DNA of 64,000 bases from an uncultured Clostridia bacterium. GTDB taxonomy: Bacteria > Bacillota > Clostridia > Lachnospirales > Anaerotignaceae. The translations under genes were made by a program, and so were the position numbers. Each line of letters starts with the position of its first letter. Within the stretch, counting starts at the first letter, position 1. Where the stretch lies: NCBI GenBank assembly GCA_944384265.1, contig CALWSR010000001.1, positions 62,001-126,000 of the forward strand, written 5' to 3'. Positions 38,100 through 64,000 of this stretch are shown here, piece after piece. The notes below the pieces were generated by a model. It made no database searches. It was not told where the DNA came from and saw nothing but the letters and a program-made list of their open reading frames with translations.

Positions 38100-39722
38100 G
38101 TGTTAAGTACTATACAAGTAGATCTTAATGTTGAGGATTTTAAATCAATAACGGATACAAGAGTTATAAATTCAATAAAAGAGGAAAATATTAGTAATTC
38201 CTATTTAATTGATTCTTTATATCTTTTAAGATTTACATCTTTTAAAGAGATTGCACTAGTATTTACAAAAAAATATAATGCAGATTTAGTCTACTTAGTC
38301 AAGAATCCAACACCACCTGATATGACTGATGTTGCCAAAAAATATGGGGTATTCATTACAAAAAAGAAAGTGATCACAATATATGTTCCTCTTGATGTAG
38401 TATTGGATAAAACTATCATTGAAACAAGTCCTGATTTTGTTGGATATAGAGTTGAATATAAATATATTATGAGTTGTAATGCAACAATTCTTAATAAAAA
38501 TCTTGATGTTAATATTTTGTCTAGGGAACTACTTGATTTTAGACCATTACTATTGATTAGAAGGTTGATTTTGGATTGTATCGCATGTGGTGGTACTGAT
38601 ATACACTTTAATAGTATTTATATAAATAAAGAGAAATACCATAAGGTACAATATCGTGTTAGTAGAGAAATTGTAGACTCATCCTTTAAATTGGATTTTG
38701 ATTTAATACATATGGCTATTAATAAATTAGTTTCTAGAAAAAGTACATCCTTAGCAGTTGATTTAGAAACTATAAATGGTATGACAACGGATATACCAAA
38801 TATTTTTAATGATGATACAGTCGATTTAAGATTTACTGGCTCTCTTGTTAGTGCAGGTTTATATGTTGTAATAGCAATACAACAGGTGACCACTACTTCA
38901 AAAACAATAGATGAGTTGGGATTTCCACCTGATGATGTAAGAAAATTGAGAAACATAGCTAAGAAAAATGAAGGATTAGTGCTTAATACTGGCCCTATGA
39001 GAAGTGGTAAAAACACAACAATTTTTGGTATGCTTAATGAAAAGATTGCAATGCCTATTAGAATTATTGAATACTCGAATCCTATAGAGGTTCGTATGCC
39101 AATACCGCAAATAAATTATAAGGGGGATATAAATGCTTTAAAGAGCTTAATGCGTATGGCGAAGAAGCAAGACTTAGACTATGCTGTATTAAATGAAATT
39201 CCAAATCAGGAAGTAGCTTTCGCTGTTAGAGACTTAGTTAATTCAGCAGTTGGTGTAATTACTACAACACACTTAACACGAGTTTGGCATCTGCCCTATA
39301 AACTTGAAGAGTTATACGGTAATGATTATAAAACTATCATTTCACAATTGTTGGCTGTAATAAATCATCGCATGTTTCGTGAACAGGTTGCTGATAACTT
39401 TATAGTATATGAATTAACTGAAGACAGTGCAACTACACCATTTAGTCAATTTGCTTATAATTTAGGAGTACATAGATATTTCGAACCAGCACCAAATAGC
39501 AATGCACACTTAAAGTTGCAGCCATTAATAGAAATTTTAATATTCAATGATGATATTAAAACAGAACTTTTAAATAATAAATCCTTATCCGAATCTGAAC
39601 AATTCTTAGAAAGATATATAAGAAAGGTTGGTGAGAACCTCGAAAGAAAACTTGTGCAAGGCATCAACAATGGACAATTTAATATTAGGGAGTTGGAACA
39701 ATTTTATATGGGAGGTGATTAA
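38100..39722 (+). CDS. GspE/PilB-type secretion ATPase with altered P-loop
   Basis: A 540-aa protein, GTG start after GGGAG. The order fits GspE/PilB: N2 domain with GGTDIHF (near 164) and VDLRFTGS, then LGFPPDDVRKL, Walker A GPMRSGKNTT (298-307), an Asp box (IIEYSNPIEV), Walker B region with NEIPNQE, and a His box in ITTTHLTRVW. In the P-loop the Ser/Thr after Lys304 is Asn305, so nucleotide use may differ. Such ATPases power type IV pili or type II secretion. GspL- and PilO-like genes follow, but no prepilin, prepilin peptidase or PilC-like gene is recognised nearby. Confidence 0.8.
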   Translation: MLSTIQVDLNVEDFKSITDTRVINSIKEENISNSYLIDSLYLLRFTSFKEIALVFTKKYNADLVYLVKNPTPPDMTDVAKKYGVFITKKKVITIYVPLDVVLDKTIIETSPDFVGYRVEYKYIMSCNATILNKNLDVNILSRELLDFRPLLLIRRLILDCIACGGTDIHFNSIYINKEKYHKVQYRVSREIVDSSFKLDFDLIHMAINKLVSRKSTSLAVDLETINGMTTDIPNIFNDDTVDLRFTGSLVSAGLYVVIAIQQVTTTSKTIDELGFPPDDVRKLRNIAKKNEGLVLNTGPMRSGKNTTIFGMLNEKIAMPIRIIEYSNPIEVRMPIPQINYKGDINALKSLMRMAKKQDLDYAVLNEIPNQEVAFAVRDLVNSAVGVITTTHLTRVWHLPYKLEELYGNDYKTIISQLLAVINHRMFREQVADNFIVYELTEDSATTPFSQFAYNLGVHRYFEPAPNSNAHLKLQPLIEILIFNDDIKTELLNNKSLSESEQFLERYIRKVGENLERKLVQGINNGQFNIRELEQFYMGGD

Positions 39723-41772: not shown

Positions 41773-41777
41773 TAATT

Positions 41778-41798: not shown

Positions 41799-41811
41799 AT
41801 TATGTCCTAAT

Positions 41812-46299: not shown

Positions 46300-46870
46300 T
46301 TTAACATTTGTATGTAAAAAAGGTTTGGGTACAATTTATGGAAATATGATACGACAAGTGGCACTGAAAGGTGTAGATACATGGAGACCTATTGCCTATA
46401 ACATGGGAAAAAAAGGAAATTCAATAGGTATGCAAGGCGGCTTAAATTTTAACACACTCCAAGTTTATGGTGCAACTATAAAACAACTATCAGAACCAAA
46501 TTTAAATTCGAACTTATGTGTTGAGTTATTTAGAAAAAAAGATAGTATTTTTGTGAGTCAAAATTTTGAACTACATGGTTTAAATAACTTAAATATAGAT
46601 AGTTTCGAAGCATATCTGCACTTTGCAAGTGGTTCTTATAGTGTAGAGGACAATGCAAGTTATTTACAAAATAACTTAGATGTGCCAATAGAAGACTTAA
46701 TATGTATTTCTTCACGCCATTCGGATGTTATTACTGTCACTTTTATTATTGAACCAATAGATGAAGTATCTGAAAAGCTCATTTTTACTTGTGAAGAAAA
46801 GCCTATAATTGAGGCTATATCAAGTATTCGTAAAGCATTTACTTCATTTGAAGCAGGAGGTTCTATCTAA
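46292..46870 (+). CDS. RNA polymerase alpha N-terminal-domain-like (Rpb3/Rpb11-type) protein
   Basis: A 192-aa protein from ATG 46292 (GGAGGT upstream). The start segment KKGLGTIYGNMIRQVAL closely matches the alpha-NTD/Rpb11 dimerisation motif (G-x-G-T-x-x-G-N-x-x-R). At the C-terminus LIFTCEEKPIIEAISSIRKA resembles the final alpha-NTD strand and helix. The large alpha insertion domain and CTD are missing. If right, it is an element-encoded RNAP-like or dimerisation module; its neighbours are replication genes. It could be an unrelated fold that shares the motif by chance. Confidence 0.35.
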   Translation: MSDLTFVCKKGLGTIYGNMIRQVALKGVDTWRPIAYNMGKKGNSIGMQGGLNFNTLQVYGATIKQLSEPNLNSNLCVELFRKKDSIFVSQNFELHGLNNLNIDSFEAYLHFASGSYSVEDNASYLQNNLDVPIEDLICISSRHSDVITVTFIIEPIDEVSEKLIFTCEEKPIIEAISSIRKAFTSFEAGGSI

Positions 46871-48752: not shown

Positions 48753-49862
48753 ATGCCAATAAATACTGATATTGTAAATCTTTATGGTAATACTGCGTTA
48801 AGAACAACAATTAATCAATTATTAATTAAAAACGAATATCCTAAGTTTACTATTCTTTGTGGTCCTATGGGTGTGGGTAAATCTACAATGGCTATGATTG
48901 CAGCAAAACACATAACTTCAAAGAACACAGAACAATCAACCTCTATACATACAATAAATTGTGCTACAAATCCTAATATAGCAGAATTAGAATCAAATTT
49001 TTTTAGATTTTCTCCATTAGAGCCAATAGTATTTATATTTGAAGAGTTACACGGATTATCTAAAGATAATAATGAGCAAACAATGTTGTTAAATATATTA
49101 GATAACTTACCAGACAATATTTATATAATTGCAACTACTACTGAATTATTTAAGATACAAAGACCAATAGTAAGTAGAAGTATAAAATTTGAGTTTAAGT
49201 TACTTACTACAAAAGAAATGAATCAGTTAATAGAAAGTTATATAAAAGGTAAAAATATCTCTTTTAGTTCTGATGTTATATCAGCTTTAGTACACACAGC
49301 TAAAGGCATACCTAGAGATTTATTAAAAACTGTAGATTTGATTATAAAAGGTGAATTATCTAACGAACAGATATTTAATTTGGTTGAATATGTAAGTGAC
49401 AATAGCTTATTTGCAATTTTCTCCTCACTAAAATCAGAAGCAGTTTCTTTTAGTTTAGTAATAACAGACTTAATGCTTACAATACCTAACAATCAAGTGC
49501 AATCTATGCGTGATTTCTGGTCTAGATTTATTTTAATCAGTAAAGGTTCGACAGAAATTACAATAGACAAAAACATATTTAACTCTCTAAATAATTTATA
49601 TAATAATAAAGAAGTGACAATGATAACAGAAATGTTACTCAATACTAATGAAAGTAGATTAATACTTGATCTTCTATATTTGAATATGAAACTTACAAAC
49701 ACTTCAAATAAAGATATGGTGGGAGTACAAAAAGTTATGCATTACCAAAATACTATAGAAAATATAGAACAAGTTGCTACAATATCTAATCAAAGTAACC
49801 AAAAATTAACAAAACAGTCTTTACAACAATTTAAACTGAATAAAGGAAAGGAGGGACTATGA
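48753..49862 (+). CDS. Clamp-loader AAA+ ATPase (DnaX/RFC-small-like)
   Basis: A 369-aa protein. Walker A GPMGVGKST (37-45), Walker B VFIFEELH (93-100, Glu-Glu in place of Asp-Glu), sensor 1 IIATTTEL (125-132) and the SRC-type arginine finger as SRS (141-143), then a helical collar. The length fits an RFC small subunit or a short DnaX without a tau tail. It would load the clamp candidate at 30018 onto DNA. A delta-like partner may be the gene at 142. AAGGGTG precedes ATG 48753. Confidence 0.8.
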   Translation: MPINTDIVNLYGNTALRTTINQLLIKNEYPKFTILCGPMGVGKSTMAMIAAKHITSKNTEQSTSIHTINCATNPNIAELESNFFRFSPLEPIVFIFEELHGLSKDNNEQTMLLNILDNLPDNIYIIATTTELFKIQRPIVSRSIKFEFKLLTTKEMNQLIESYIKGKNISFSSDVISALVHTAKGIPRDLLKTVDLIIKGELSNEQIFNLVEYVSDNSLFAIFSSLKSEAVSFSLVITDLMLTIPNNQVQSMRDFWSRFILISKGSTEITIDKNIFNSLNNLYNNKEVTMITEMLLNTNESRLILDLLYLNMKLTNTSNKDMVGVQKVMHYQNTIENIEQVATISNQSNQKLTKQSLQQFKLNKGKEGL

Positions 49863-49866: not shown

Positions 49867-50301
49867 ATGAGAGTTTTAATAGGAAAAGAAATTAATATAG
49901 ATAAACCAGTCAATCTAATAGATTTGAAGCCTATTGATCGTGTATTATATTCTGCAGTTTATGCTTTTCATCAAACAAAATATTATACTAGACGTATAGC
50001 ACAAACAGCAGAGAAGGAAGAAGAACGCAAACGATTAATTAGGGAAAATTTAATAGATGATTTATTAGCAATGATTCATCAACAAATAACCTTAAATAAT
50101 AGCTTAATTGGAAAACAAGATACCTGTAACGCTATATTAATTTCTATAAAACCAAAGTACGTACCTTTTATAGATGAAGTAATTACAGCAAAAGATTTTA
50201 CAGCATATATTTTAGAACATATAAAACCAGATAAATCTATTGATTATCATTCACATAATTTACCTCATTTAATTTATATAGAGCGTAGAGGTGATTCTTA
50301 A
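49867..50301 (+). CDS. Unknown small protein
   Basis: A 144-aa protein (AAGGAGGG upstream) with a central helix of charged residues (KEEERKRLIREN), perhaps a coiled coil, and a C-terminal alpha/beta segment. It follows the clamp loader by 4 bp and precedes the giant surface protein with no gap. No family recognised; could be a replisome adaptor. Confidence 0.5.
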   Translation: MRVLIGKEINIDKPVNLIDLKPIDRVLYSAVYAFHQTKYYTRRIAQTAEKEEERKRLIRENLIDDLLAMIHQQITLNNSLIGKQDTCNAILISIKPKYVPFIDEVITAKDFTAYILEHIKPDKSIDYHSHNLPHLIYIERRGDS

Positions 50302-53300
50302 ATGAAATATAATTATTTTTTAAAGCGTAGTGCAGCATTGTTACTAACGCTTTTTTTAGTAGCACAACCAATTTCACTTATATATGCTGCTCGTGGTGAT
50401 GGAGATTCTGGAAAAGAAGAATATTCTGGAAATGTTGTTGTCATAGAGGTTCCTTCTGCTGGTGTTCGTAGTGTTAATGATTTAACTTCTTCTGACTATA
50501 AAATAAGTATTACAGAGTTAGAAAAATCTTATAGACATTTTGATAAAGAAGATGGTTTGACAGAATATTTCTTTTCGGATAATCAGGAGAGAAAAATTGA
50601 AGATCTTCCTGATTATATTGCTTGGCTTATCGAACATAATATATTAAGTAGAGATGATAAAATCACAATAACATATTCAAATCATTCTAAATTCCCAGAG
50701 GTAGATTTAGAAAAAACAGATTTACAAATTGAAATGTTTGCACCAACAACAAAAACAGATTTCTTATTATTACTATATAAATCTGTTTTTGGAACAATAC
50801 AATCACGAGCAGTTGGAGTTCAAACAGATAGTTATAGAATTGATGAAAATGGCGAATTAACACAATTCATATTAGATTCTTGGGATTATAAAGCACAAGG
50901 AGATTATGTTAAGAAAAGTTATTTAAATAAGACTAATCTTGAAGTTAATCATTATGTCGATTTAACTGGCGGTGATGGTGGTTCTGGTGGATCAGGCGGT
51001 AACGGTGGTGACGGTGGCGATGCCAATGCAGATATTTATATTGATGGAATTGTAGATAGCTATCAATTTCAGCCAATAGGGGATACATTATTGTATCATA
51101 CAACAGATGTTATAGAGTTATATATGTCAGCTATGTTAAACAAGGGACTTATAACAGAAGATGATAATATAAAGCAAACATTTCTTGAAGAACATAATAA
51201 ATCAACATTGTCTGGTGGCGTAACAAGCTATCCTCTATGGGATAGTAGGTTATACCCCAAATTATATATGGGGACATTACCAAAAAGAACAGCAATTTCA
51301 GAATTAAATATTGGAAGTGGTCCTTTAGGAAGAGGATACAAAGTTACTGGTTCTGGAAGTTCTTTAGTAATAGATAAAGAAGATGTAGGAAGCGAAGCTC
51401 GCTCTATGTTTAATGATGAAAATGATTTAACAAGAATGGATGTTTATAGATATATCTATAGATTCATGCAGTCTAGCGAAAAGGTACTATCAGAACTGGA
51501 GTCGTCAATAGTATCTTACAAATATGGTGCAAAATTTGAAAATAGTGTATTACCAGAAGATGTGGAAATTTTACAATATTTAACAGCTAAAGGCATACTG
51601 GATTTTGATCATAATTATGATTACATAAATTTATATAATAGTATAAGTTGGAACGATACATATAAACTCCTATATCGTGTTGTAAATAAAGAAGCAAGAT
51701 TTGATTTTAGCAAGATACAATTAACAGATAGTGATCAATATTGGCAAGCTAAGGGGTTTTCATCACAACCAATCACTCTATATGGAGACCAACCTGACTT
51801 TGATATTTTACCATTAAAATCCTTAAACGATACAGAAGATACAGTCACATTAGCATCTGTTGGTTTTGGTGGTATAATTTCGGATTATGATATAACTCTG
51901 CTGGCTGAAGATACCTTTGTTTCTGAAATTATGTCTAAAGATTTCAGAACATTAGAATATAACAATATTAACTTTGATCCTTCTATATTGTTATTATCTG
52001 ATGAAGCATTAAATCTTTTGGTTAAAGATGCTATTAATATTGAATCGGGTAATAATGAAGTTGGATTTTCAGAAGATACTATAAATAAAATAACAGGCAT
52101 TGAAGATTATAAGAAAAAGTTACCTTGGTGGAATAGTAACAAATTTAAAGATACAGCAGAATATGTTCTTAATAATGCTTTTATTTCTCTATCTTATACA
52201 GATGTTGCACCGGATACAGAAATACAAAATAAGCTAAAAAAGATACGCTCTACTAAATTTAACTGGGCATCTATTAATAATTCTCAGGTATCTGATAAAA
52301 ATGCTTCAATGCGTTTGACTATAAATACTTTATCTTCTGGTAAAGTAGATAATATTTTTTCTAAATCTGATGCAGATAGATATAATTTTATAATGGAAGA
52401 AGCTAAAGTTTTAACTGTTATGGATGTATCTAAAGGGAATGAGTTATATAAAATAGAGCGTTCAGAATCATCTGGAGAACTTGAAAATACTGCAAAATGT
52501 ACTAGAGGTTTAAAGGCAGAAAACAGGCAACAGGCCCAAAATAAAGCAACAGCATCTACAAGTGTATCGAATATAAATTCTGCGGCAGAGGCTGTATTAA
52601 ATGTACAAACATATACTGGTAGTACTGTTCAGAGTGGACAGGCACAGACATATGTTTCATTGAGAGAACTACAAAAAGTATATCCTAAAATTGTAAAAAT
52701 TTCAGATAGTATACTTAAAAATACTTCTACTGGTAGTTATGCTTATTTTAATTTAGAACAAAATGTTGCTTTAGTTGGTACTTCTGTGGTACAGACACAA
52801 GGGGAAAGTGTAGTAAAGAAAGATGATGAATTATATTATGACTGGAATGTTATCTATAGATTATTTCCTGCAGCTACTTCCAAAGACCTAAATATCGGAA
52901 ATGCACTTTATTATTCCGACAGTTTAATAGAGAGTGAGTATAATAATATGCCAATATATGGTGATGATATGCTCAATAGAACTACTGCATCCGTAATGAA
53001 TGTTGTAACTACATTGAATAATGTTCCAAGTAGTGAAACGACAGTAAATGAGAATGAAATAGGCAAACCGGATTTAAGTAAAGCAGAACATGAATTATTT
53101 GTAAGTTTGTCGTCTATTGATTGTAATGCAAATATTATTTATAGAGTATTATCAAATAGTAAAAAAGAGTATGCTATAGCTGTATTACAATTTAATCCAG
53201 ATAATTCATCGGATTTAAATGTTCAAATTCCAGCAACACCAACATTAGAGGATATGATGGGTACTATAGCAAAACGGCCATCAGACGGAACAGGAAAAGA

Positions 53301-55431
53301 TAGATGGGACAGAAATATTGAATTAGGTAATTTATACGCTAATTGGATATATGGAACACAAGATAAGGAATATGTAAAAACTGGCATAATTAAACCATCC
53401 TTAACAATCATTGCTCTTCCTGATTCTGAAAGTGAAACCTCTGATTTACTAACAGAATTAGCTACAATGAAAGGTCTAAAATATGGAAGTATTGATGAGA
53501 TTAAATCATCACTTTTAGATAAATATTCATTACAAGGTTTGGTTGATAATGATTTATTTAAATATTATACTTCAAAAGAAATTAAAGGAGCATTATGGAG
53601 TCCAGAATTAAAAGCGACTACAGGACAAGAGATACCAGACTTATCGGATAAGAATTATGAGAGATATATCATTGATGAAACGGGACACTTTGCATATATT
53701 AAAAATAGATTATACATAGCATTGTCTATGATACCTCATTTAAAATATAATCAACAAGGTGTAACAGAATATCTTTATACCAAACCGTCACAGGTAGACT
53801 CTCAGTGGAGTATTGGACAAACAATAAAATTTAAAGTAGGGGATACAGATGATGATACTATAAATGGTGTTGTTGTTTCTCTAAATGGTATCTTTGCCAC
53901 TATACAGTTAGATGCTGTGCAGGGTATTCCATTTTATGATAAGGGTGTTGTAAAAATAGTGCCACCGAATACATCTAGTATCACCAATATAGATGACAAA
54001 GATTTAATTGGTATTCGCTTAAGTGCATTAAGAGATAAGTATCCAAGTGCAGTCATTGACAAAGATAGTAGATTGATAGATGATCCCTTAGCATTCTTTC
54101 CATCAATTAATAAATCATCTTTTGTAGTTACAGAACAAAAAACACATTTTATAGAAGCTTCTAAGAAAACTCCAAAAGATAGTATTTCTTCATCTCAGCT
54201 CTCTACACAAACAACTTTTACGGCACATAAAAAATTAGTTGATGAGAAGTTAAAAAAATTATCAGGAGAATCTTCTATTGATTATAATAATGTATATGCT
54301 TTTCCCAAAATTAAAATACCAATTACAAGCTATACTATTCTAAATGGTGAGCTAAAAGAGGCATCTCCAGATCGTTCTGCGTTTATGCCGCCAGTTTTAT
54401 TTCAATCATTAAATAAGTTGATTGTAGATCAGATGATTGACACATCTCTTGGTGCTATACCAGTTAACGAAATACCTGATGGTGCTATATTATCAACGTC
54501 TAATGCTGCTCTAGTTTCTAAAACAAGTAATGGGAAAAAAACATTTGTTGGGTTTATTGATGTTAGTTTTTCAGAAAATGCAGCAAATATTTTACCATCA
54601 AAGAATGATTTATATAAATCATTTGCTTCTTGTATGGTTAATGTTGGAAATCAGTATTTAAATATTACAAAATATTTTAAGAGTCTTGATTTTGCCGATA
54701 TTGGAAACTATGATTCTGAGATAGACATTTTAAATAAGTCTTCTGGAAAAGAATATAATTTGAACCTATATTACAAAGAAGATTCTACAAATAAGATGGT
54801 TCGTAAAATGGTTACACAATCTGGTACAGAGTCAAGTCAGAATATATCTACTACTCAAAATAATTATACGCCTTACGGTGGTAATACAGTAGGTCTTGGT
54901 TCTATTGTATTCGAAGATGGTTTATTAGCATATCGTATTTCAGAGGAGGGTGAAGTGCCTATTTATACATTACTATCTCATTCTGAAAATGCTGTTGTTG
55001 GCGATTTAAGTAATATAGAATTTTTTGATGATAAAGTATTAGAAGATTCTATATTAGATAAGACAACCGAATTGACAACTGCTGGATTTCAAATGTTAGC
55101 TAATGCCGATTCTTTGCGTGAGGCATTTAAAGAAGAGTTTGCTGATGCGTTTAAAGGTGATTTATTAACCTTATTACGATTAATTTTTTTCTGCATATTG
55201 TCATGGTTACTTGTGTCATCATGGGTTTGTTACGGCTTAATGTTTAGTAGGGTAAGGGGTATACTTGAGATGATAAAATACCCAACTGGAGAAAGTAATA
55301 AAAGAGGATTTGATTTAATCAAATTATTCTCTTTAAATACGTTGTCTCTGGAATCAGAATTTACATTAGGGCGTTTTATACTTTATGATGTTATTATTTC
55401 TTTATTATTAATGTTAGTTTGGAAATTGTAA
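50302..55431 (+). CDS. Giant exported, membrane-anchored surface protein (1709 aa)
   Basis: N-terminal signal peptide (about 1-32, ending near IYA). A Gly/Ser/Asp linker at about 222-240 (DNA 50968-51021). SLH-like segments near 90-170, 275-300 and 425-470 (helix-Gly-Ile-Leu pattern), and a stretch near 785-860 beginning YVSLRELQ that resembles copper-amine-oxidase-type stalk domains. The body is Ser/Asp/Asn-rich. The C-terminus has two membrane helices (1621-1648 and 1691-1709). This is a huge exterior protein tethered in the membrane, a likely scaffold of the apparatus encoded by the following genes. No enzymatic motif. AGAGGTG precedes ATG. Confidence 0.75.
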   Translation: MKYNYFLKRSAALLLTLFLVAQPISLIYAARGDGDSGKEEYSGNVVVIEVPSAGVRSVNDLTSSDYKISITELEKSYRHFDKEDGLTEYFFSDNQERKIEDLPDYIAWLIEHNILSRDDKITITYSNHSKFPEVDLEKTDLQIEMFAPTTKTDFLLLLYKSVFGTIQSRAVGVQTDSYRIDENGELTQFILDSWDYKAQGDYVKKSYLNKTNLEVNHYVDLTGGDGGSGGSGGNGGDGGDANADIYIDGIVDSYQFQPIGDTLLYHTTDVIELYMSAMLNKGLITEDDNIKQTFLEEHNKSTLSGGVTSYPLWDSRLYPKLYMGTLPKRTAISELNIGSGPLGRGYKVTGSGSSLVIDKEDVGSEARSMFNDENDLTRMDVYRYIYRFMQSSEKVLSELESSIVSYKYGAKFENSVLPEDVEILQYLTAKGILDFDHNYDYINLYNSISWNDTYKLLYRVVNKEARFDFSKIQLTDSDQYWQAKGFSSQPITLYGDQPDFDILPLKSLNDTEDTVTLASVGFGGIISDYDITLLAEDTFVSEIMSKDFRTLEYNNINFDPSILLLSDEALNLLVKDAINIESGNNEVGFSEDTINKITGIEDYKKKLPWWNSNKFKDTAEYVLNNAFISLSYTDVAPDTEIQNKLKKIRSTKFNWASINNSQVSDKNASMRLTINTLSSGKVDNIFSKSDADRYNFIMEEAKVLTVMDVSKGNELYKIERSESSGELENTAKCTRGLKAENRQQAQNKATASTSVSNINSAAEAVLNVQTYTGSTVQSGQAQTYVSLRELQKVYPKIVKISDSILKNTSTGSYAYFNLEQNVALVGTSVVQTQGESVVKKDDELYYDWNVIYRLFPAATSKDLNIGNALYYSDSLIESEYNNMPIYGDDMLNRTTASVMNVVTTLNNVPSSETTVNENEIGKPDLSKAEHELFVSLSSIDCNANIIYRVLSNSKKEYAIAVLQFNPDNSSDLNVQIPATPTLEDMMGTIAKRPSDGTGKDRWDRNIELGNLYANWIYGTQDKEYVKTGIIKPSLTIIALPDSESETSDLLTELATMKGLKYGSIDEIKSSLLDKYSLQGLVDNDLFKYYTSKEIKGALWSPELKATTGQEIPDLSDKNYERYIIDETGHFAYIKNRLYIALSMIPHLKYNQQGVTEYLYTKPSQVDSQWSIGQTIKFKVGDTDDDTINGVVVSLNGIFATIQLDAVQGIPFYDKGVVKIVPPNTSSITNIDDKDLIGIRLSALRDKYPSAVIDKDSRLIDDPLAFFPSINKSSFVVTEQKTHFIEASKKTPKDSISSSQLSTQTTFTAHKKLVDEKLKKLSGESSIDYNNVYAFPKIKIPITSYTILNGELKEASPDRSAFMPPVLFQSLNKLIVDQMIDTSLGAIPVNEIPDGAILSTSNAALVSKTSNGKKTFVGFIDVSFSENAANILPSKNDLYKSFASCMVNVGNQYLNITKYFKSLDFADIGNYDSEIDILNKSSGKEYNLNLYYKEDSTNKMVRKMVTQSGTESSQNISTTQNNYTPYGGNTVGLGSIVFEDGLLAYRISEEGEVPIYTLLSHSENAVVGDLSNIEFFDDKVLEDSILDKTTELTTAGFQMLANADSLREAFKEEFADAFKGDLLTLLRLIFFCILSWLLVSSWVCYGLMFSRVRGILEMIKYPTGESNKRGFDLIKLFSLNTLSLESEFTLGRFILYDVIISLLLMLVWKL

Positions 55432-55439
55432 TTTTTAAC

Positions 55440-55472
55440 GGGTTGATTTTTTATAAATCAACCCATTTATTT
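55440..55472 (+). terminator. Intrinsic terminator
   Basis: GGGTTGATTT (55440-55449) pairs with AAATCAACCC (55455-55464), followed by ATTTATTTTTTT. Lies between the giant protein and the 411-aa membrane protein, so partial read-through or a separate promoter is expected. Confidence 0.85.
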
Positions 55473-55498
55473 TTTTAGATTAAGGAGGGATATTAGTT

Positions 55499-56734
55499 AT
55501 GAATGTTATGTCTGTGCAAATGCACTATATCTATACTTTAAATGATAAAAACAAAAAAATACATCAACTATCTATACTAATTTTATGTCTTTTAGCATGT
55601 TATATCATAATGGTTATTAATGCTCCTTTATTTAGTGCTGCTAGTACAGGAGACAATTTTACAAAAATATTTGAAACAAATGCATTTAGAGGTTCCTTTC
55701 AGTGGCTATCTAAAATGGATTGGTTGGGTATGATTATGCAGTTTGCAATATCTGTTTTTTCTGTTGTTGGTGTTTGCCTTATGGTTTTACGTATTATAAC
55801 GTCTATGCTGTATTTATCTTCTAGAGGACTTTGGGAGGAAGTTTCTGAAATAAAAAAATCTGGTGGAGATAATGATTTATATGACCTTGGTTTACTTGGA
55901 CAATTAAAGAAAGTAGGTCAAGGTAAACAAGGTACTGGTATGGATGCTATTTTAAGTGCTTTTCTAATTCTGTTACCTGATGTTAAAAGATATTCCGACT
56001 TTGCTGAGGGTAGGGGTGATAAGTTTGATGAAAATATTACTTTTACAAATTATATGTTAAAAATAGCTATACCTACAGTAATGTGTACTTTCTTCTTTGC
56101 AATGGGATTTAATGGGACTTTATTTAAGGCATTGGCTGTAACTGTAGATGCTATGGGTACATTGGCAGACAGAGTTGTTTCCCAAAATTATGCAGCTATG
56201 GTGAATGACTTAATTGTGACTGGAAAAGCATATAAATTTGCAGTAGACCAAGATGGAACTTCAAAAGGTGAATTTCAAGGTAAAATTGCAAGAGAAATAT
56301 ATGCACAAATTTTAAGACGTATTGATGATATTGATACAAATACTAGCTTAACTATTGGTGCTAATGTTGAAAAAGCAATTACTGACGCTATTACAGCAGA
56401 TAATGTAAGTAGTGGCGGCTCATATGGTAGACAAGTAAAATTAACATCTGATGACTTAGCTACAGATTCAAACTGGGAATTACTTGGATACACCATTATC
56501 GTAAATAGTACCCCAAACTATGATGGTGCTGCTGTACAACCGTATTCTGCATCTTTATATGAATTAGCAGGTGGTTCTGAAAGTGGTTTATCAGAAACAA
56601 CTTCTATTTATGGTGAAGAAAGTAAAACAATGTATGCCCATGTTTATATTGATCAAGTAAAAGTTAAGGATAATGACTTCTTTAATAAGGACGCACTTAA
56701 TGGTAGTGGTGGAAGTTCTTCTGATGAAGATTAA
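55499..56734 (+). CDS. Membrane protein, T4SS-like channel candidate
   Basis: A 411-aa protein with an N-terminal hydrophobic segment (about 24-42), a long pair of membrane helices near 75-105, one more near 185-205, and a soluble Ser/Thr/Asp-rich C-terminal half. AAGGAGGG precedes ATG 55499. Its place between giant exported proteins and a polytopic subunit recalls VirB6/TrbL-type or pore proteins of conjugation systems. No clear family motif; role inferred from topology and context. Confidence 0.55.
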   Translation: MNVMSVQMHYIYTLNDKNKKIHQLSILILCLLACYIIMVINAPLFSAASTGDNFTKIFETNAFRGSFQWLSKMDWLGMIMQFAISVFSVVGVCLMVLRIITSMLYLSSRGLWEEVSEIKKSGGDNDLYDLGLLGQLKKVGQGKQGTGMDAILSAFLILLPDVKRYSDFAEGRGDKFDENITFTNYMLKIAIPTVMCTFFFAMGFNGTLFKALAVTVDAMGTLADRVVSQNYAAMVNDLIVTGKAYKFAVDQDGTSKGEFQGKIAREIYAQILRRIDDIDTNTSLTIGANVEKAITDAITADNVSSGGSYGRQVKLTSDDLATDSNWELLGYTIIVNSTPNYDGAAVQPYSASLYELAGGSESGLSETTSIYGEESKTMYAHVYIDQVKVKDNDFFNKDALNGSGGSSSDED

Positions 56735-56756
56735 TTTTGTATAATGTATTTTTTTA

Positions 56757-56795
56757 TTGAGGGGTACGTAATAAACGTACCCCTCAATTTTTTTT
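56757..56795 (+). terminator. Strong intrinsic terminator
   Basis: TTGAGGGGTACGT (56757-56769) pairs perfectly with 56775-56787, loop AATAA, then T8. Follows the 411-aa gene. Confidence 0.9.
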
Positions 56796-56808
56796 GGAGG
56801 TGATTTAT

Positions 56809-57009
56809 GTGTTTAATTTTTTAACAAAAATTATTTCCATATTTTTTATTTTATTTTTAATTTTTAATTTAGTATCTTGTTCGCCTGAAACAAAAGAGGA
56901 TTCTATATTTTTTGATATAGAAAGAATATTAAATGGTGAAAAAGTATTGGATGGAGAACAACTAACAGATATATTTCGCATAAATGATAAAGACGATAAT
57001 AACACTTAA
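56809..57009 (+). CDS. Small lipoprotein
   Basis: A 66-aa protein from GTG 56809, 7 nt after GGAGGT (the TTG at 56794 would include the binding site). The hydrophobic signal ends in Leu-Val-Ser-Cys (Cys at about 24), a lipobox. The mature part is short, acidic and probably disordered. It could be an assembly or exclusion factor of the envelope complex; function unknown. Confidence 0.65.
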   Translation: MFNFLTKIISIFFILFLIFNLVSCSPETKEDSIFFDIERILNGEKVLDGEQLTDIFRINDKDDNNT

Positions 57010-57080
57010 GAAAGTAGAAAAATTGAAAAATTATCCCAGTTATTAGTATTAAAAATAAAAAACAGAAGGAGGAGTAAACT

Positions 57081-60000
57081 ATGAATTGGTTTAGACAGAA
57101 AAAACTCATTTTAAAAATACGTTATTTTCTATCAAAAAAATGTATTCCTTTATTCTTAGTTTTTTCTATGTTATTTTCAATAACATCATTCTATAATCCA
57201 AATACTTTTTTGGCTATATCGGAGGATACTTTTACTTTAGTTGATGATGCAAAAGAAAATGTGTCAATATATCTAAATCAGACACAGATAGCTTATAAAA
57301 GTGAGCTTAAAGAAAAAGGTAATATGACACAACTTCTTAAGTATTATGTTAGATATTTAATTGCTATGGATTACATATCCAACAATGTAGTGGAAACGTC
57401 CAATGGTAGATATGACTATGTTATTGGACAACAAGAATATCAAACATATGTACAGACTTTGGGTACAATGTCTAGAGAAATTAACAGTATATATAATGGA
57501 GCCGAAAATGAAAATGAAGCTAACGATAAAGCATCCGTAACAAGCATACAAGATAAAACAGTAGAATTTTGGTTAAATGATCTATCTAAAACAATAGATG
57601 TTAGTCTACCTACATCTCAAAAGACAACAACTATATATCGTGATGAAATACAACATATTTTTGATGACTATTTAGTTAAATTACTTGAAATTGTTTCTGC
57701 AGATGCGTTGAGTCTCGAATCCATATCAGATGTAGAGTCTGAACTTGGAACAGATGACGCTATAAATAAAGTAATTAACAGCAATAAAAATTATGTTGGC
57801 CCATTATCAAACTTATTTTCTACGATTATATTGTCAATTGATTATTGGAATTCAATACATACTACAAATGTTATTAAAAATGAATATAATAGCAATACTT
57901 TGGAGTTTAATACAAATTTAGGTAAATTGATAACAAAAGCTTTATCAGAGTATGAAGAAGAGGGTAGTTCTGAAGAAGAAATAGTGATAAAGGATACAAA
58001 TAATATACTTTCCTTATTGACAAATACTAGTAGAGTAGATGGAGAACTTATAGTTGATGGAAATGGAGATGCCAATTTAACTGAACTTGGGTATATCATT
58101 ATTTCTGCTGGTTCTGTAAATGATCCCTTTGTATCTAAAGCTGGAAATGATTTATTTTTAGAAACAATACATCAGTTTGTTACAAGCGAAACACAATGGG
58201 ATAAAACAACTACAATAATTAAAAAAGCGATTTCTTTGAAAAAACCATTATGGGTTGCAAGTGTATCTGAGATAAATAATTCTAAATCTGGTAAAGAAAC
58301 TGTGACTTATAGACCAGCTTTTATAACAGACATGGTATCTATAGGGGATACTACAAATACCAGTGATAGTCTAACTCAGTTTGGCATATTAAAAGGATAT
58401 ATGCAGCAAAGTAAAGTTGATAGCAGTACTTTTGAATATGTTCGAAATGCTGATCCAGCTACTGATAGCGACATAGAACAAGATAGTGTAACATCTGGAA
58501 TTGTTACGGTTGGTTCGGATACTGTACTTGCTAATAATGATGAAATGACAGAACCTATTGCTTATATTGTAAATGATAAAAGTATTTTTAGAGGTACTTC
58601 AAGTTGGCCAGAAATGATTGGACAAACAACTAATATTACTTTGCAAAATGCTAGAATGGATACTAAATCAAATGAAAGTTTAATTAACGCTAATATGGGT
58701 ATGCTTTTTGTTAATGGATTGGGTGATATAGTATTAGCAGATGATACAATAGTACTTCCTGCTATTGCAAATCCATTATTATACGAATACACCGATGATT
58801 CTTTTAAGTTAGAAGAGGGAAGTGCTGCATATGGTGCAAATGGAAAAGAGTATACATTTAATGAGGATTTTAAAGGCTACTACCCATACACTGCTACTTT
58901 TATGAATCATGCTCCTGAAGTCACCAAAACTGGCAGTAATTCAGACAAGTTATCTTTTGCTAATAAAAAAGATAAAGACAAATATGTAATAGTTGCAGAA
59001 GAGATTAATTTGAGTGCTAAAATGAAAAATACTGCAGTTCAAATAACGGATGGTTCAAATGATGGTGGTAAAGTTTCTACATCTAGAAGAAATGTAGTTC
59101 CAATAGATATAAATTCATTTTCAGTACAAGAAGATGAGGAAGATGTTACATCATTATTTAGATTATTTGAATTAGGTCAATCTTTTTCTGTCGGTGGATT
59201 TTTTAAGAATAGTCTATTTACAAATAGAAATAATGCTTACTATGTAAAAGATATGAAGTATAATTCTGATCAACTTTCATTTTTCCCACTAGTTGATGAT
59301 ACTACAGATATAGAAGATAAAGTAAATATTAGTGCTCCGATAACTACCTCTACTAGAAGATATATTGCTTCTGTTGATGCTGGAAATGGTGAATGGTCTC
59401 CAACAGGAAACTTTAAAGTTGATTATTTTGTTAGAAATTATATAGCAGAAGCATTACTTGGTACACAATATGCTTCTACAATGGTTAAAAATTTGAATGT
59501 AGATTATGAAGATATAGTAAACGATACGCCAAGAAGATTTGAACTATTTATTACAGGTATTGTAAATAGTTTAATGGATACATTTGGAAATATAGACGGT
59601 GTATTGAGTATGCGCAATGCGTATGAAAATAAGTTCTTTGCTTTAATAATTGAGTTTATAAATATGTATTATCCATTTATAGCTGTATTGTTATTGATTA
59701 TCATTGCAACACGATTTTTAAGAAGTAAAATTAGTGTACCATATATTATTGTTATTTCTTTAATGACAATAGCAGGTTTTGAGATATACACTACGTGGCT
59801 TCCGACATACTCTACATGGTCATATAATTTCTTTGTTAATGATATTGCTGAGGATATAAGTTGGAATGCTATTATTCATCAATCTGAGAATTATGATGAA
59901 ACTTATGCTGATTCTGATAGAGTTAATGCTAATGGAGACCCAAAGCCATACACAGCAACTATAACATTATATCAGCTTTCTAATGCAGATGTCATTCGTA

Positions 60001-61565
60001 CATGCAATAGATTGAATGTAACAGAAACAGAATTAAAATCTGGTGATGTAATTTACATCGATCAAAATGCTGGTATTTTTCTTCAAGGCAATTTAATTAA
60101 AATGTCTTTAGATAAAGCATTGGCAAATAAAACAATACGTGGTCTTTATTTAAATCAATGGGAAACTTTAGCTGCAGAAGAAAATGTTAAGTTAGATGAA
60201 ATTGAATCTACAGAGTTAAATAAAAATCCGTATCAGATTAGATTTATAGATTCTTCACCCTCTTTGGATACGTATTATATGCCATTAAATAATATTATTC
60301 AATCATTCACAGATAACTTAAATTTAACCACTTCGATTTTTAAAATACAACGAAATACATTTTCTTATGACAAAGATTTCTATAAGGATGCTTTTGTTGT
60401 AAATTCATTTATTAATTCAGGATTATTTTTAGATCCTGGAAATTTTGATGCAATAAGAGGGAACATTGTAGAAGGAACTATAGAAAACGGTGACTTTACT
60501 ATTTCCAGCGTAAAAGAGTTAATTGAAGCAAAGTTTAAATATCCAGAGGACTGGTTGGGTTTATCTAATATATTAGTAGAGCCGACTGATGAGATGAAAG
60601 AGACTCTTTGGATGAATACATTAAAGAAGAATGGTTATTATGATGTGAATTGGGAACCAAATGATAAACTAAATGATTTAATTTCATACACTAACAAGCA
60701 TACAAAATTATTTATAATGAAAAATAGTGATCAACTAAGTTTTATATCTGATGAAAATGCAATAAAGATTATATCTTTATATGCAACAACAGCATTGTGC
60801 CAACGCGGTTCTGAGTATACTTCTTGGATGTACCCTAATTATGTAAATAGCAGCGAGCTTGAATTAAAGGACGTACTCTCTGCATCTCTAACAAGTATGT
60901 ATGATAAAATAGTAGCTGTAGATGGCTCCTTTGTAAATACAATTGGATTCCTATATGGTATTGTTGGCTTATTTTCTATAGCACTTATTTTATTTTTCTC
61001 TAATCTATTTATTCTAGTTATAACTTATTTAATTCCAGTATTATATGCATCTCTTGGTGTTTTAATTGTTGCAAAATTAGTATTAGGACAGAGTGCTAGT
61101 GCAACGATTAAGGGGTATTTTAAAATAACTTTTACAACAATTGTTTTATATTTTGTTTATAATATATCTCTAACAATTGCAAATAAACTTGGCCATGATT
61201 GGTTTTCATTATTAATAGTTACTTTATTTAGTTTTATATGTTGTTACTATATGTTTTTTATATTAATGTCCCTAATACAGAATTTTACAGACCTTGGAAA
61301 TGCAACATTAAAAGCAAATTTACTTCGTGCATCTAATATTCTTACAGGCGGCAGTATTCAGAAATTAATAGCAAAAACAACAGGTAATATACAATCTAAT
61401 ACAACTTCTGCAACACAGCATGGTGTGTTTAATGTATTCAGTAGAAATTCATCTATAGATGATATACCTATATCAAGAGGAAGCCGTGAATTAAATAAGT
61501 CTAATGTTGATTCCGTAAGACATTATGCTTCACCTCATAGAAGAAAAGGAGTTGATAAGAATTGA
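57081..61565 (+). CDS. Giant polytopic membrane protein (1494 aa), VirB6/TrbL-like C-terminus
   Basis: An N-terminal signal or anchor (about 20-40) precedes an exported, Ser/Asn/Thr-rich domain of about 800 residues. Membrane helices lie near 861-905. A second exterior stretch follows (about 910-1285), then four or five helices (about 1287-1403). The C-terminal 90 residues are polar. The clustered C-terminal helices recall VirB6/TrbL polytopic subunits of T4SS, here with a huge extracellular domain. GAAGGAGGAG precedes ATG 57081. The stop overlaps the next start. Probably the channel of an envelope-spanning machine; assignment is from topology. Confidence 0.55.
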   Translation: MNWFRQKKLILKIRYFLSKKCIPLFLVFSMLFSITSFYNPNTFLAISEDTFTLVDDAKENVSIYLNQTQIAYKSELKEKGNMTQLLKYYVRYLIAMDYISNNVVETSNGRYDYVIGQQEYQTYVQTLGTMSREINSIYNGAENENEANDKASVTSIQDKTVEFWLNDLSKTIDVSLPTSQKTTTIYRDEIQHIFDDYLVKLLEIVSADALSLESISDVESELGTDDAINKVINSNKNYVGPLSNLFSTIILSIDYWNSIHTTNVIKNEYNSNTLEFNTNLGKLITKALSEYEEEGSSEEEIVIKDTNNILSLLTNTSRVDGELIVDGNGDANLTELGYIIISAGSVNDPFVSKAGNDLFLETIHQFVTSETQWDKTTTIIKKAISLKKPLWVASVSEINNSKSGKETVTYRPAFITDMVSIGDTTNTSDSLTQFGILKGYMQQSKVDSSTFEYVRNADPATDSDIEQDSVTSGIVTVGSDTVLANNDEMTEPIAYIVNDKSIFRGTSSWPEMIGQTTNITLQNARMDTKSNESLINANMGMLFVNGLGDIVLADDTIVLPAIANPLLYEYTDDSFKLEEGSAAYGANGKEYTFNEDFKGYYPYTATFMNHAPEVTKTGSNSDKLSFANKKDKDKYVIVAEEINLSAKMKNTAVQITDGSNDGGKVSTSRRNVVPIDINSFSVQEDEEDVTSLFRLFELGQSFSVGGFFKNSLFTNRNNAYYVKDMKYNSDQLSFFPLVDDTTDIEDKVNISAPITTSTRRYIASVDAGNGEWSPTGNFKVDYFVRNYIAEALLGTQYASTMVKNLNVDYEDIVNDTPRRFELFITGIVNSLMDTFGNIDGVLSMRNAYENKFFALIIEFINMYYPFIAVLLLIIIATRFLRSKISVPYIIVISLMTIAGFEIYTTWLPTYSTWSYNFFVNDIAEDISWNAIIHQSENYDETYADSDRVNANGDPKPYTATITLYQLSNADVIRTCNRLNVTETELKSGDVIYIDQNAGIFLQGNLIKMSLDKALANKTIRGLYLNQWETLAAEENVKLDEIESTELNKNPYQIRFIDSSPSLDTYYMPLNNIIQSFTDNLNLTTSIFKIQRNTFSYDKDFYKDAFVVNSFINSGLFLDPGNFDAIRGNIVEGTIENGDFTISSVKELIEAKFKYPEDWLGLSNILVEPTDEMKETLWMNTLKKNGYYDVNWEPNDKLNDLISYTNKHTKLFIMKNSDQLSFISDENAIKIISLYATTALCQRGSEYTSWMYPNYVNSSELELKDVLSASLTSMYDKIVAVDGSFVNTIGFLYGIVGLFSIALILFFSNLFILVITYLIPVLYASLGVLIVAKLVLGQSASATIKGYFKITFTTIVLYFVYNISLTIANKLGHDWFSLLIVTLFSFICCYYMFFILMSLIQNFTDLGNATLKANLLRASNILTGGSIQKLIAKTTGNIQSNTTSATQHGVFNVFSRNSSIDDIPISRGSRELNKSNVDSVRHYASPHRRKGVDKN

Positions 61566-62593
61566 CAGAAGAAAAATTTTATTCTTTAAAAGAAGAGCAG
61601 GAAGCAAGTGGGAAAATGATTTTCCCGCTTAATATTCATCAATCATTAAATGCGAGTGCTGGGTTACAAAACGGTGAAAAAATAACAATAGCTATTACTG
61701 GTTGGGTAATTTTTTGTGCAATTCTAGCATGGCTGCTAATGTCATTTATTAGGAATATTGTACCAACACATTATATTCTTATTACTATTAGCATTATAAT
61801 AATACTCAATTTAACCTTAGGAGTATACTTACTTAGATTTTTAATGGATGAGCGTTCAGTTTTAAAGGAATACGAGGCAAAAGATGGTGATTCTTTCGCC
61901 TCGTATTTTAGAATTTATCGTGATACACAAATGTCTATAGACAGTAAATATGGAATAATTGAGTATGATGATGGAACTCAAGCTGCCATTTTACGCATGC
62001 GACTTGGTTATAATACTAATGACAAATCTAATAATACATGGATGTTTAATAGAGATGCTTTTAGAATTATTAATGATGCAGGTATGCCTCATAGAGAGAT
62101 AACTACTACAGAAGTATTTAGAGATAGTGATTCTTCTGAATTTATGCGGCGTCAAACAAACAATATAAATGATCCTGTTTTAAAAGAAGCTCAAAAAAGA
62201 ATTTTGAAAGGAATATTCGATATTGCAGAAAAAGAATCAAATGTTCCTGTTATGTATATCATGATATTTGCAACAACCCAAATTATGAGAGATGAATTAT
62301 ATAATGTTATAAAAAGATTAGAAAAGCATTATGATGTGGAACAGACTTGTTTTAGAGATATTAAGTTTCTAAATAATGATGAAATTTTAGAATTTCTTAG
62401 AAATTATTATAAACTAGAAGTTATGGATATGAGCCTACTTCGTGCTAAAACAACAATCAATGATTTAAGTAAATCAGTATCTTGTGAATTATTAAGAGTT
62501 TATGGGACTTCTGGTAAAAATTATAATACTGATGCAATGCATGAATTATTACCATCTATCATTAAAAATACTGGTATAAGGAAGGTGAAATAA
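61562..62593 (+). CDS. PrgI/VirB3-like membrane protein with large soluble tail
   Basis: A 343-aa protein from TTG 61562 (AAAAGGAG upstream). Two membrane helices (about 43-64 and 70-92) near the N-terminus are the PrgI/VirB3 layout. The remaining 250 residues are soluble alpha/beta, which is unusual for VirB3 but like VirB3-VirB4 N-terminal fusions. There is no Walker motif here. It is coupled to the 1494-aa protein. Two hairpins (61606-61630 and 61869-61907) lie inside the gene. Confidence 0.45.
   Translation: MTEEKFYSLKEEQEASGKMIFPLNIHQSLNASAGLQNGEKITIAITGWVIFCAILAWLLMSFIRNIVPTHYILITISIIIILNLTLGVYLLRFLMDERSVLKEYEAKDGDSFASYFRIYRDTQMSIDSKYGIIEYDDGTQAAILRMRLGYNTNDKSNNTWMFNRDAFRIINDAGMPHREITTTEVFRDSDSSEFMRRQTNNINDPVLKEAQKRILKGIFDIAEKESNVPVMYIMIFATTQIMRDELYNVIKRLEKHYDVEQTCFRDIKFLNNDEILEFLRNYYKLEVMDMSLLRAKTTINDLSKSVSCELLRVYGTSGKNYNTDAMHELLPSIIKNTGIRKVK
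61606..61630 (+). other. Intragenic hairpin near gene start
   Basis: AAGTGGGAAAA (61606-61616) pairs with TTTTCCCGCTT (61620-61630), one G-T pair and a 3-nt loop. It starts 44 nt after the start codon of the PrgI-like gene. Confidence 0.5.
61869..61907 (+). other. Intragenic hairpin, 10-bp outer stem plus inner stem
   Basis: AATACGAGGC (61869-61878) pairs perfectly with GCCTCGTATT (61898-61907). An inner AAAGA/TCTTT stem (61880-61884 with 61892-61896) extends it. It lies just after the second membrane helix of the PrgI-like gene. Confidence 0.5.
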
Positions 62594-62595
62594 AA

Positions 62596-63858
62596 ATGCT
62601 TAATATTTATCTAGTTGTAAATAAATCAAATAGTATTGCTTCTCAGTTTTTAGAAGAACAAAAAATTGCAAAGATAGTACATTCTGCAAGTTCTCTTAGT
62701 TCTGATACAACTATAGATCAGAATATTTATGATGTTGATAAATTCATTTATATTTACTATGGTGATGTTAAAGATAATAATGTTGCATTTAAACAAGACT
62801 TAAGTAAGTTTAAGATGATGTTAAAATCAGCATTCTTTAGTACGAATAGCATCTTATTTATTTTAGTGCAGGCTGATCCTGATATAAAAGAATATGTGCA
62901 GACGGTATTAAAAGAGTCTGATTTACCTAAAGAGAATATAGAGATTGTTGAACATAATGAAACACTTATGATACCTGAGCTTGTAAAATATATTTCTGGT
63001 GTTAGCTTAGGTGATACCACTAAAAATACATATCTGAATGTTTATATATCGGAAGCTGGTAAAAACGAAAAAGAACGCTATGAAAATAAAGCAAGTGATA
63101 AAATTAAAAATATCACACCTCAATTAGTCGATGATTCAGAAATGTATCGTAGAAGGGTCAGAAACGTAGCAATTAGTAATGACAGGATTGTTTCTCAAAA
63201 AGAAACAATCAATTTATCTAAAGAAGAGTTTCCGATGCATAAAAGAAAAACTCTTGATTTTAAAGAAACAATTGTAGTTTCTGGTGAACAATATACTAAT
63301 TTTTTAGATATTGCAAAAGCATATGCTACTTATTTCGAGTATGTTGGCACTAGATGTTTAGTTATAAATATGACAAACGAATCTTTTGAAATAAGAAAAA
63401 AAGGAATAAATAGGTTATCTCTTTTTGATCTTGAACATCAGTATATACCAGAACATCCTATCTCTTATATAAATTTAAACTTAGCCAATTTTTCACATCT
63501 TATTGCTAATGAAGATAACTTGATTTCAATATCTGTTAAAATTCTGGTAGTGAAAGAAGAATTATATAGTATTGTTTGTAATATATTAAGATGCTCATTG
63601 GGGAATTTTAAAATAGTGAAATTAATACATAAACAATCTCTATCATTTGAAAAACTGAAAAGTGTACCAGTAACACCAGATGTTATTGTAGTTACAAACA
63701 AATTGATAGACGAAGATTTTGATATTTCTAGTTATAGAGATGATTTCCATGGTACTATCTGCGTATTAGAACCAGACACTTTTACTACTATAGATGATCA
63801 AAGAGATTTTTATTATGATTGTTTTGGTAATACAGGAGGAGAGGATTATAATGATTAA
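62596..63858 (+). CDS. TadZ/CpaE-like protein with degenerate ParA/MinD domain (uncertain)
   Basis: A 420-aa soluble protein. The N-terminal 140 residues are receiver-like alpha/beta. About residues 145-220 are charged. The C-terminal 200 residues resemble a ParA/MinD ATPase: ETIVVSGEQYTNFLDIAKAY then GTRCLVIN, where the strand-loop-helix should hold a Walker A but reads GEQYTNF, so it is non-catalytic. This receiver plus inactive ParA architecture is typical of TadZ/CpaE pilus-localisation proteins. The next gene overlaps. A 10-bp hairpin lies at 63186-63210. Confidence 0.4.
   Translation: MLNIYLVVNKSNSIASQFLEEQKIAKIVHSASSLSSDTTIDQNIYDVDKFIYIYYGDVKDNNVAFKQDLSKFKMMLKSAFFSTNSILFILVQADPDIKEYVQTVLKESDLPKENIEIVEHNETLMIPELVKYISGVSLGDTTKNTYLNVYISEAGKNEKERYENKASDKIKNITPQLVDDSEMYRRRVRNVAISNDRIVSQKETINLSKEEFPMHKRKTLDFKETIVVSGEQYTNFLDIAKAYATYFEYVGTRCLVINMTNESFEIRKKGINRLSLFDLEHQYIPEHPISYINLNLANFSHLIANEDNLISISVKILVVKEELYSIVCNILRCSLGNFKIVKLIHKQSLSFEKLKSVPVTPDVIVVTNKLIDEDFDISSYRDDFHGTICVLEPDTFTTIDDQRDFYYDCFGNTGGEDYND
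63186..63210 (+). other. Intragenic perfect 10-bp hairpin
   Basis: GATTGTTTCT (63186-63195) pairs with AGAAACAATC (63201-63210), loop CAAAA, inside the TadZ-like gene; no T tail. Confidence 0.4.
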
Positions 63859-64000
63859 ACGTATGGACGATTGCGTTGTTATACTTGATAGGGATACAAA
63901 GGCTCTGGTGGAAAATGTAGCATATATTGACCTATCAAATAATACAACAATATTGACAGATATAAACGAATTAAATGGATCGTTTGCTAAAATGCCGGTA
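63851..64000 (+). CDS. N-terminal fragment of unknown protein (cut by window end)
   Basis: From ATG 63851 (AGGAGGAG upstream) an open frame of 50 codons runs to the window end. It overlaps the stop of the previous gene. The fragment is acidic with alternating strands and no signal peptide. Its first residues (MIKRMDD) resemble those of the gene at 5131 (MIKRLDN), but this short match proves nothing. Function unknown. Confidence 0.55.
   Translation, partial: MIKRMDDCVVILDRDTKALVENVAYIDLSNNTTILTDINELNGSFAKMPV

Follow-up and report, generated by a model that had tools for sequence, protein, structure and literature searches.

What machine, if any, is encoded by a run of genes for giant membrane proteins in an uncultured Clostridia bacterium, and what kind of element carries it? 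The window that we analyzed, a stretch of 64,000 nucleotides, corresponds to positions 62001-126000 of the 196,082-bp contig C1 (CALWSR010000001.1), and the reading was extended past its 3′ end; coordinates refer to the window unless marked C1 or C2. The original prediction placed proteins of 1709, 1494 and 411 aa, a PrgI/VirB3-like protein and a TadZ/CpaE-like protein in one direction near the end of the window, and proposed that they form an envelope-spanning machine like a type IV secretion system (T4SS). All five ORFs are present where they had been placed; they are read from the + strand as a compact operon, in which neighbouring genes overlap or lie close together.

A conserved cassette of giant and membrane proteins

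The 1709-aa giant (50302..55431, +) has a signal helix, an exterior part of ~1580 residues with a Gly-rich stretch, and two C-terminal transmembrane (TM) helices. It is followed by a polytopic membrane protein of 411 aa (55499..56734, +), which is among the best-kept parts of the cassette (46% over 312 aa to its homologue on contig CANRDC010000001.1). Next comes a small ORF of 71 aa with a lipobox-like N-terminus and an uncertain TTG start (56794..57009, +), assigned by position and by eye, as is an 86-aa ORF at the matching position on CANRDC010000001.1. The 1494-aa giant (57081..61565, +) has a VirB6-like topology, in which hydropathy gives a signal helix, an exterior domain of ~820 residues, a TM pair, a second exterior domain of ~375 residues, and four to five C-terminal TM helices. 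The end of its gene is overlapped by 4 bp by the start of the gene for a 343-aa protein (61562..62593, +) with two N-terminal TM helices and a C-terminal domain in the cytoplasm, a protein whose topology and position are VirB3/PrgI-like. Two cytoplasmic proteins complete this stretch, one of 420 aa (62596..63858, +), which by eye may have a degenerate ParA/TadZ-like fold that has lost its P-loop, and one of 422 aa (+), whose start lies in the window (63794..64000) and which runs on to C1:127062. Upstream, the gene for a 144-aa protein (49867..50301, +; 44% to CANRDC010000001.1) abuts the 1709-aa gene, and a clamp-loader AAA+ ATPase of 369 aa (48753..49862, +; phrog_5846, E 2.3e-26) opens the same conserved block. 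The order on the contig is clamp loader, 144, 1709, 411, 1494, 343, 420 and 422 aa, then a P-loop ATPase of 635 aa and proteins of 875 and 270 aa.

Homologues of the five proteins lie in matching order on CANRDC010000001.1, with identities over the BLAST-aligned stretches of 26, 46, 36, 38 and 26% for the 1709-, 411-, 1494-, 343- and 420-aa proteins, respectively; the giants there measure 1919 and 2078 aa. Another contig, BNUF01000069.1, also has homologues of the 1494-aa and 343-aa proteins, in the order 1422, 323, 425, 437 and 419 aa, then VirB4. The five ORFs are evidently not chance reading frames. From hydropathy only, the 1494-, 2078- and 1422-aa proteins share one topology in the three elements, namely a signal helix, a long exterior part, a TM pair, ~375-400 exterior residues and four to five clustered C-terminal TM helices. 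By the same measure, a signal helix and two C-terminal TM helices occur in both the 1709- and 1919-aa proteins, and two N-terminal TM helices in all of the 343-, 366- and 323-aa proteins.

Database comparisons added few names. The 1709-aa giant has no family in Pfam, PHROG or PDB profile searches, and hhalign gave no profile match between the 1494-aa protein and the TrbL-family protein of pMRC01. PDB profile searches with alignments A5-A8, A16 and A18 (A6 and A7 being the 343-aa and 1494-aa proteins) returned nothing useful, and A14 gave only Gly-rich or chance matches. The PrgI/VirB3-like label of the 343-aa protein fits its two-TM topology in three elements but finds no sequence match, including to pMRC01 TrsD and the TrsD neighbour (hhalign). 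Calling the 420-aa protein TadZ/CpaE-like is a weaker point: by eye its P-loop can be read as degenerate, but family and PDB profile searches gave no support for a TadZ/CpaE-type ParA-like domain.

The recurrence of the same cassette and topologies in two other Clostridia argues that the giants are core parts of the machine and not cargo adhesins. We rejected simple adhesins as an identity for them: no match to such proteins was found, they have no LPXTG motif, their position and topology are kept in the relatives, and they lie in the context of a VirB4 cassette.

A VirB4-type ATPase downstream of the cassette

The VirB4/TraE ATPase that had been expected downstream is present as a 635-aa protein with a P-loop (C1:127155-129062), 1.2 kb past the end of the window. 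Its direct matches to Pfam P-loop_TraG and NCBIfam TraC are weak. A profile of the protein and two homologues was aligned by hhalign with the VirB4s of pMRC01, of the Vescimonas plasmid pMM35_02 and of locus L014 (Prob 98.7, E 1.5e-16), an important caveat being that locus L014 had itself been found with the query; the pMRC01 VirB4 alone gives a weaker match (E 4.6e-4, Prob 33). In a survey of 350 genomes the same profile retrieves, at ~1e-13, six ordinary PrgI-VirB4 fusions, which are 46-80% identical to the Vescimonas one, and a control comparison with the element's own FtsK-like ATPase gave nothing. The profile-profile match, the retrieved fusions and the empty control make the identification as a VirB4-type ATPase well supported at the sequence level. 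The protein is 49% identical to its counterpart on CANRDC010000001.1; an AlphaFold model from a three-sequence alignment has low confidence (pLDDT 44).

A peptidoglycan hydrolase had also been predicted downstream. Here a 270-aa 3D-domain protein (C1:131964-132776) accounts for a family match in the scanned downstream set, the assignment to this gene being by eye, and a large membrane-anchored protein of 875 aa (C1:129046-131673) shows by eye an NlpC/P60-like Cys/His pattern, but Pfam/NCBIfam and PDB profile searches gave no family for the latter. Two TM proteins of 161 and 165 aa (C1:134655-135634) are weak candidates for VirB8 (NTF2-like). Among the parts compared, no sequence match to VirB3, VirB6 or VirB8 was found in the cassette proteins, and topology and gene order only are what suggest VirB3, VirB6 and VirB1 roles. 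The proposal of an envelope-spanning T4SS-like machine thus gains a VirB4 ATPase and a conserved cassette, but its conjugative side stays at the level of plausible, since no relaxase family was found.

The cassette lies within an element integrated in miaB

The window lies inside an element inserted in miaB and flanked by two tyrosine integrases. A 682-bp 5′ part of the miaB region is present twice, at the two ends of the element (85% identical). At the right end, a tyrosine integrase of 387 aa (by eye) precedes the copy that completes an intact miaB; at the left end, on contig C2, a truncated miaB copy is followed by a 407-aa tyrosine integrase (Pfam), and an HTH_17 match there fits an excisionase. 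The duplicated miaB part and the integrases mark both ends, on C2 and C1, which puts the size of the element at 36.4 + 164.0 kb, or at least ~200 kb. In two congeners miaB is intact and adjoins mutS; the sequence on their left side shows no match to C2, so that synteny confirms the right flank only. One strand holds 118 of the 122 ORFs.

In the assembly the element is divided between contigs C1 and C2, which by eye share a starting stretch of ~57 bp (C1:1-80 and C2:1-60). An inverted repeat, next to a 311-aa Xer-like recombinase (C1:65-1000), seems to be the meeting point of the two halves, and it is possible that this pair reflects invertible DNA and caused the assembly break.

Relatives appear rare and anciently separated

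A scan of 84,980 species genomes for the VirB4 Walker region returned two loci. One is CANRDC010000001.1, a 228,842-bp contig from a rabbit Oscillospiraceae MAG, and the other is BNUF01000069.1, an 11,870-bp contig of Clostridia bacterium MS499-75. Matches to a giant or to VirB4 were confined to the source genome among 58 genomes of the family, and occurred in three of 392 order genomes (one of the three, at 21% identity, is probably an ordinary T4SS) and in one of 391 class genomes; the 411-aa profile found only the source genome among 398 phylum genomes. In phage records, plasmid records and viral_contigs, no relatives of the giants or VirB4 were found, one viral_contigs match being unrelated. 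Phage contig L015 was set aside as an ordinary phage with a HerA-like ATPase. Relatives of the element thus appear to be very rare, a statement of limited sensitivity because the 84,980-genome scan was limited to patterns and the first pattern searches of viral_contigs used poor peptides.

Comparison of the element with CANRDC010000001.1 gives 71 homologous gene pairs at 33-158 kb, with 67 of 70 steps in order; a break at 37-38 kb would suit a circular order, and a few genes are out of place. G+C content is 48% in CANRDC010000001.1 and ~29% here, which indicates an old relation and not a recent copy. No tyrosine recombinase was found on CANRDC010000001.1, nor an overlap of its ends. This contig consists of genes like those of the element and may represent a plasmid-like form.

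An RNA polymerase and replication genes on the element

Outside the window, C1:40160-47920 encodes a single-chain β-β′ RNA polymerase of 2586 aa with an intact NADFDGD motif. Its chain holds the β domains Rpb2_3, Rpb2_45, Rpb2_6 and Rpb2_7 and the β′ domains Rpb1_2 to Rpb1_5. CANRDC010000001.1 encodes a 2755-aa homologue, and identity to the host's own rpoC is 25-32%. A tree of eight rows groups the two element polymerases as a clade (100/100), whose stem measures 3.7 changes per site and which stands apart from cellular and jumbo-phage β′; the exact place of the clade is uncertain because of the long branches. Several phage records (OR844998, OR849902 and similar) match over the β and β′ regions in the manner of cellular rpoB/rpoC, and look like bacterial contamination.

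Replication genes of the element include a family A DNA polymerase, a clamp loader and UvrD, and its left end carries a class II-type ribonucleotide reductase. Further families in the scanned element sets are a CHC2 zinc ribbon, toprim, DHH, metallophosphatase, GreA N-terminal, sigma region 4 and dUTPase. An NAD-dependent DNA ligase is apparently split into two genes 20 kb apart (C1:37023-38480 and C1:57968-58897), both of which are kept in CANRDC010000001.1. Two larger proteins have counterparts there as well: one of 505 aa (26023-27540; 43%), with no Pfam or PHROG family, no PDB match and an AlphaFold model from two sequences at pLDDT 34, and one of 587 aa (46870-48633; 29%), with no Pfam or PHROG family.

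FtsK-like, pilus-like and surface modules

An FtsK/SpoIIIE-type translocase of 704 aa is encoded at 17455..19569 (+; PF01580, 9.5e-18; phrog_1358, 1.1e-34; 47% to CANRDC010000001.1). No VirD4 coupling protein was found on the element, and the FtsK-type ATPase is a candidate for that role. Its gene lies ~31 kb away from the VirB4 cassette, beside two WXG100-sized proteins, and the protein may serve a type VII-like system instead of the T4SS. The two WXG100-sized helical proteins (13751-14412) have 98 and 113 aa, with counterparts of 99 and 115 aa at the same place in CANRDC010000001.1, and a 549-aa TM protein is encoded upstream of the EssC/FtsK-like ATPase; together these genes are a possible type VII-like module.

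A GspE/PilB-family secretion ATPase of 540 aa (38100..39722, +; PF00437, 3.2e-15) has in this copy GPMRSGKN as its conserved P-loop in place of GK[ST]. Within 38100-43312 it is accompanied by a PilM/N-like protein and an actin-like protein (ParM-like, by eye). The CANRDC010000001.1 element set adds T2SSF and two prepilin N_methyl matches, and these genes together suggest a pilus-like system. Surface proteins of 3938, 1498, 1016 and 1574 aa, likely real adhesins, lie elsewhere on the element, away from the giants (C1:6737-29642 and 149588-154312). Two of them have clear LPXTG-type motifs, and a sortase and a penicillin-binding protein were recognized by eye among these regions.

Relaxase and virion genes

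The relaxase that the original prediction expected on the element did not appear: Pfam scans of ~220 proteins from the two large elements found no relaxase family. Terminase, portal, capsid and tail families were likewise absent from Pfam and PHROG scans of these proteins, core set A4 lying outside the PHROG scan and the adhesins and a few proteins that straddle tiles lying outside the scans. We rejected a MOBM-type (tyrosine recombinase-like) relaxase common to both elements because CANRDC010000001.1 has no tyrosine recombinase. Two NERD nuclease-like proteins are kept in both large elements, one of them encoded ~3.7 kb 3′ of the VirB4 gene. As MOBC relaxases are PD-(D/E)XK-like (PMC12857230), our best guess is that these NERD proteins may include an unrecognised relaxase.

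A model for the element and its alternatives

We hypothesize, and consider it probable, that the carrier is a giant element of at least 200 kb, integrative and probably also conjugative, which combines a divergent monoderm T4SS and an FtsK-like coupling protein with its own replisome parts and RNA polymerase. The sequence itself shows the VirB4 homology, the conservation of the cassette, the integrated state, the RNA polymerase and the replication genes. The cluster would make up the part that spans the envelope in a T4SS of monoderm (Gram-positive) type, strongly divergent and powered by the VirB4-like ATPase. The 343-aa protein would take the place of VirB3, the 1494-aa protein would be a VirB6-like, polytopic translocon that exposes two large domains outside the cell, and the 1709-aa and 411-aa proteins would make up the wall-crossing and surface part, with the 875-aa and 3D-domain proteins opening the peptidoglycan. 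The element would sit in miaB, replacing its 5′ end, and exit by means of the integrase and the excisionase-like protein, and would replicate and transcribe its genes largely with its own enzymes. Recipient cells would be held by the sortase-anchored adhesins, possibly also by the type IV-pilus-like system, and element DNA would be sent through the VirB4-driven channel, to which the FtsK-like ATPase would couple it. We infer DNA as the substrate, the coupling role, the activity of the element and every step of transfer.

The main rival is a T4SS that has been turned to secreting proteins, to cell contact or to competition, on an element that spreads vertically or otherwise. It would accord with the lack of a relaxase match, the many adhesins, the sortase and the WXG100-sized proteins, and has a precedent in the Patescibacteria T4SS, which is related to the monoderm conjugation class and mostly relaxase-free (PMC12102498). 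However, the carrier is mobile, with integrases and a replication apparatus, and a relaxase could have escaped recognition, given the PD-(D/E)XK-like MOBC enzymes (PMC12857230) and the two conserved NERD proteins; we regard co-option as unlikely, if a serious competitor.

A temperate jumbo phage or phage-derived satellite, with virion genes too divergent to recognize and giants that are virion or host-envelope parts, is less probable still. The virus-like gene set (RNA polymerase, DNA polymerase A, clamp loader, dUTPase and split ligase), the large conserved proteins without family (505, 587, 983 and 1036 aa) and the strong one-strand bias would all suit such an origin. Against it stand the VirB4 cassette, the giants and VirB4 without relatives in phage records or viral_contigs, and the lack of a terminase, portal, capsid or tail family in Pfam or PHROGs (set A4 outside the latter scan); the sole terminase hint is a weak match of the FtsK-like protein (5.4e-5 versus 1.1e-34 for FtsK). 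We give very little weight to a decayed or chimeric integrated island in which unrelated surface genes lie beside a partial T4SS without forming one machine. The rarity of relatives and the split over C1 and C2 would accord with decay, but the 71 homologous pairs with 67 of 70 steps ordered, the full-length ORFs and the intact RNA polymerase catalytic motif in the distant element run the other way, and the collinear CANRDC010000001.1 element already contradicts this reading.

Comparison with known systems

The conjugative T4SS reading places the cassette nearest to monoderm conjugative systems (MPF_FATA/MPF_FA; pCF10, pIP501, Tn916 and pMRC01). As in these, a VirB4-type ATPase, a two-TM protein upstream, a polytopic protein with a C-terminal TM cluster and peptidoglycan-active proteins (here predicted) lie in one block. 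The proteins here are much larger, the VirB3-like one having 343 aa whereas VirB3 homologues are 10-15 kDa (PMC12857230), and two extra cytoplasmic proteins lie between the VirB3-like gene and VirB4. The cassette also differs in having no sequence match to the VirB3/VirB6 parts compared and no recognised relaxase or VirD4, with an FtsK-type ATPase instead. We conclude that the machine takes the monoderm T4SS, a known kind, to a new and extreme form.

The carrier shares features with several other kinds of element. Like the FtsK-type ICEs of Actinobacteria (AICEs, TraB), it is integrative and putatively replication-capable, with an integrase and an FtsK/SpoIIIE translocase, but AICEs use the FtsK protein alone, without a T4SS (PMC3218068), whereas a VirB4 cassette is present here. 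Jumbo phages (phiKZ-like, AR9, Rhizobium RHph_Y65) resemble it in their large genomes, cellular-related RNA polymerases and replication genes; in contrast, the polymerase here is one fused β-β′ chain in a separate clade, a T4SS is present, the element is integrated, and virion genes are unrecognised. RNA polymerase homologues have been mentioned on likely mobile elements of Firmicutes (PMC7598289), and the element shares with these and with YonO an RNA polymerase-family enzyme on a Firmicutes mobile element. YonO is ~100 kDa and very distant (PMC5467207), whereas the enzyme here has ~2600 aa, with β and β′ domains in one chain. The Borg elements of methanotrophic archaea are very large, partly virus-like and of uncertain class (PMC12660748), general traits in which the element resembles them; unlike Borgs, the element here is in a bacterial host, integrated in miaB, and has a T4SS cassette.

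We found no description of an element that combines a T4SS with its own RNA polymerase and replication enzymes in the open-access PMC literature, and, taken whole, the element may represent a class not described before. We tentatively consider, as possible rather than probable, a separate class of 200-230-kb Clostridia elements, virus-like and virion-less, that lack a classical relaxase, spread from cell to cell by a giant-subunit T4SS and carry a single-chain RNA polymerase whose lineage differs from every cellular and phage enzyme compared.

An active element of this kind would be transferable between bacteria and would pair nearly the whole information-processing set of a large virus with a conjugation-type channel, which would make jumbo phages and conjugative elements harder to tell apart. 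It would also add a deep, single-chain branch of multisubunit-type RNA polymerase, which is expressible and testable. The outer part of monoderm T4SSs is still little understood, and the wall-crossing parts of this T4SS, which would be enlarged to 1500-2000 residues, could be of use in studying it.
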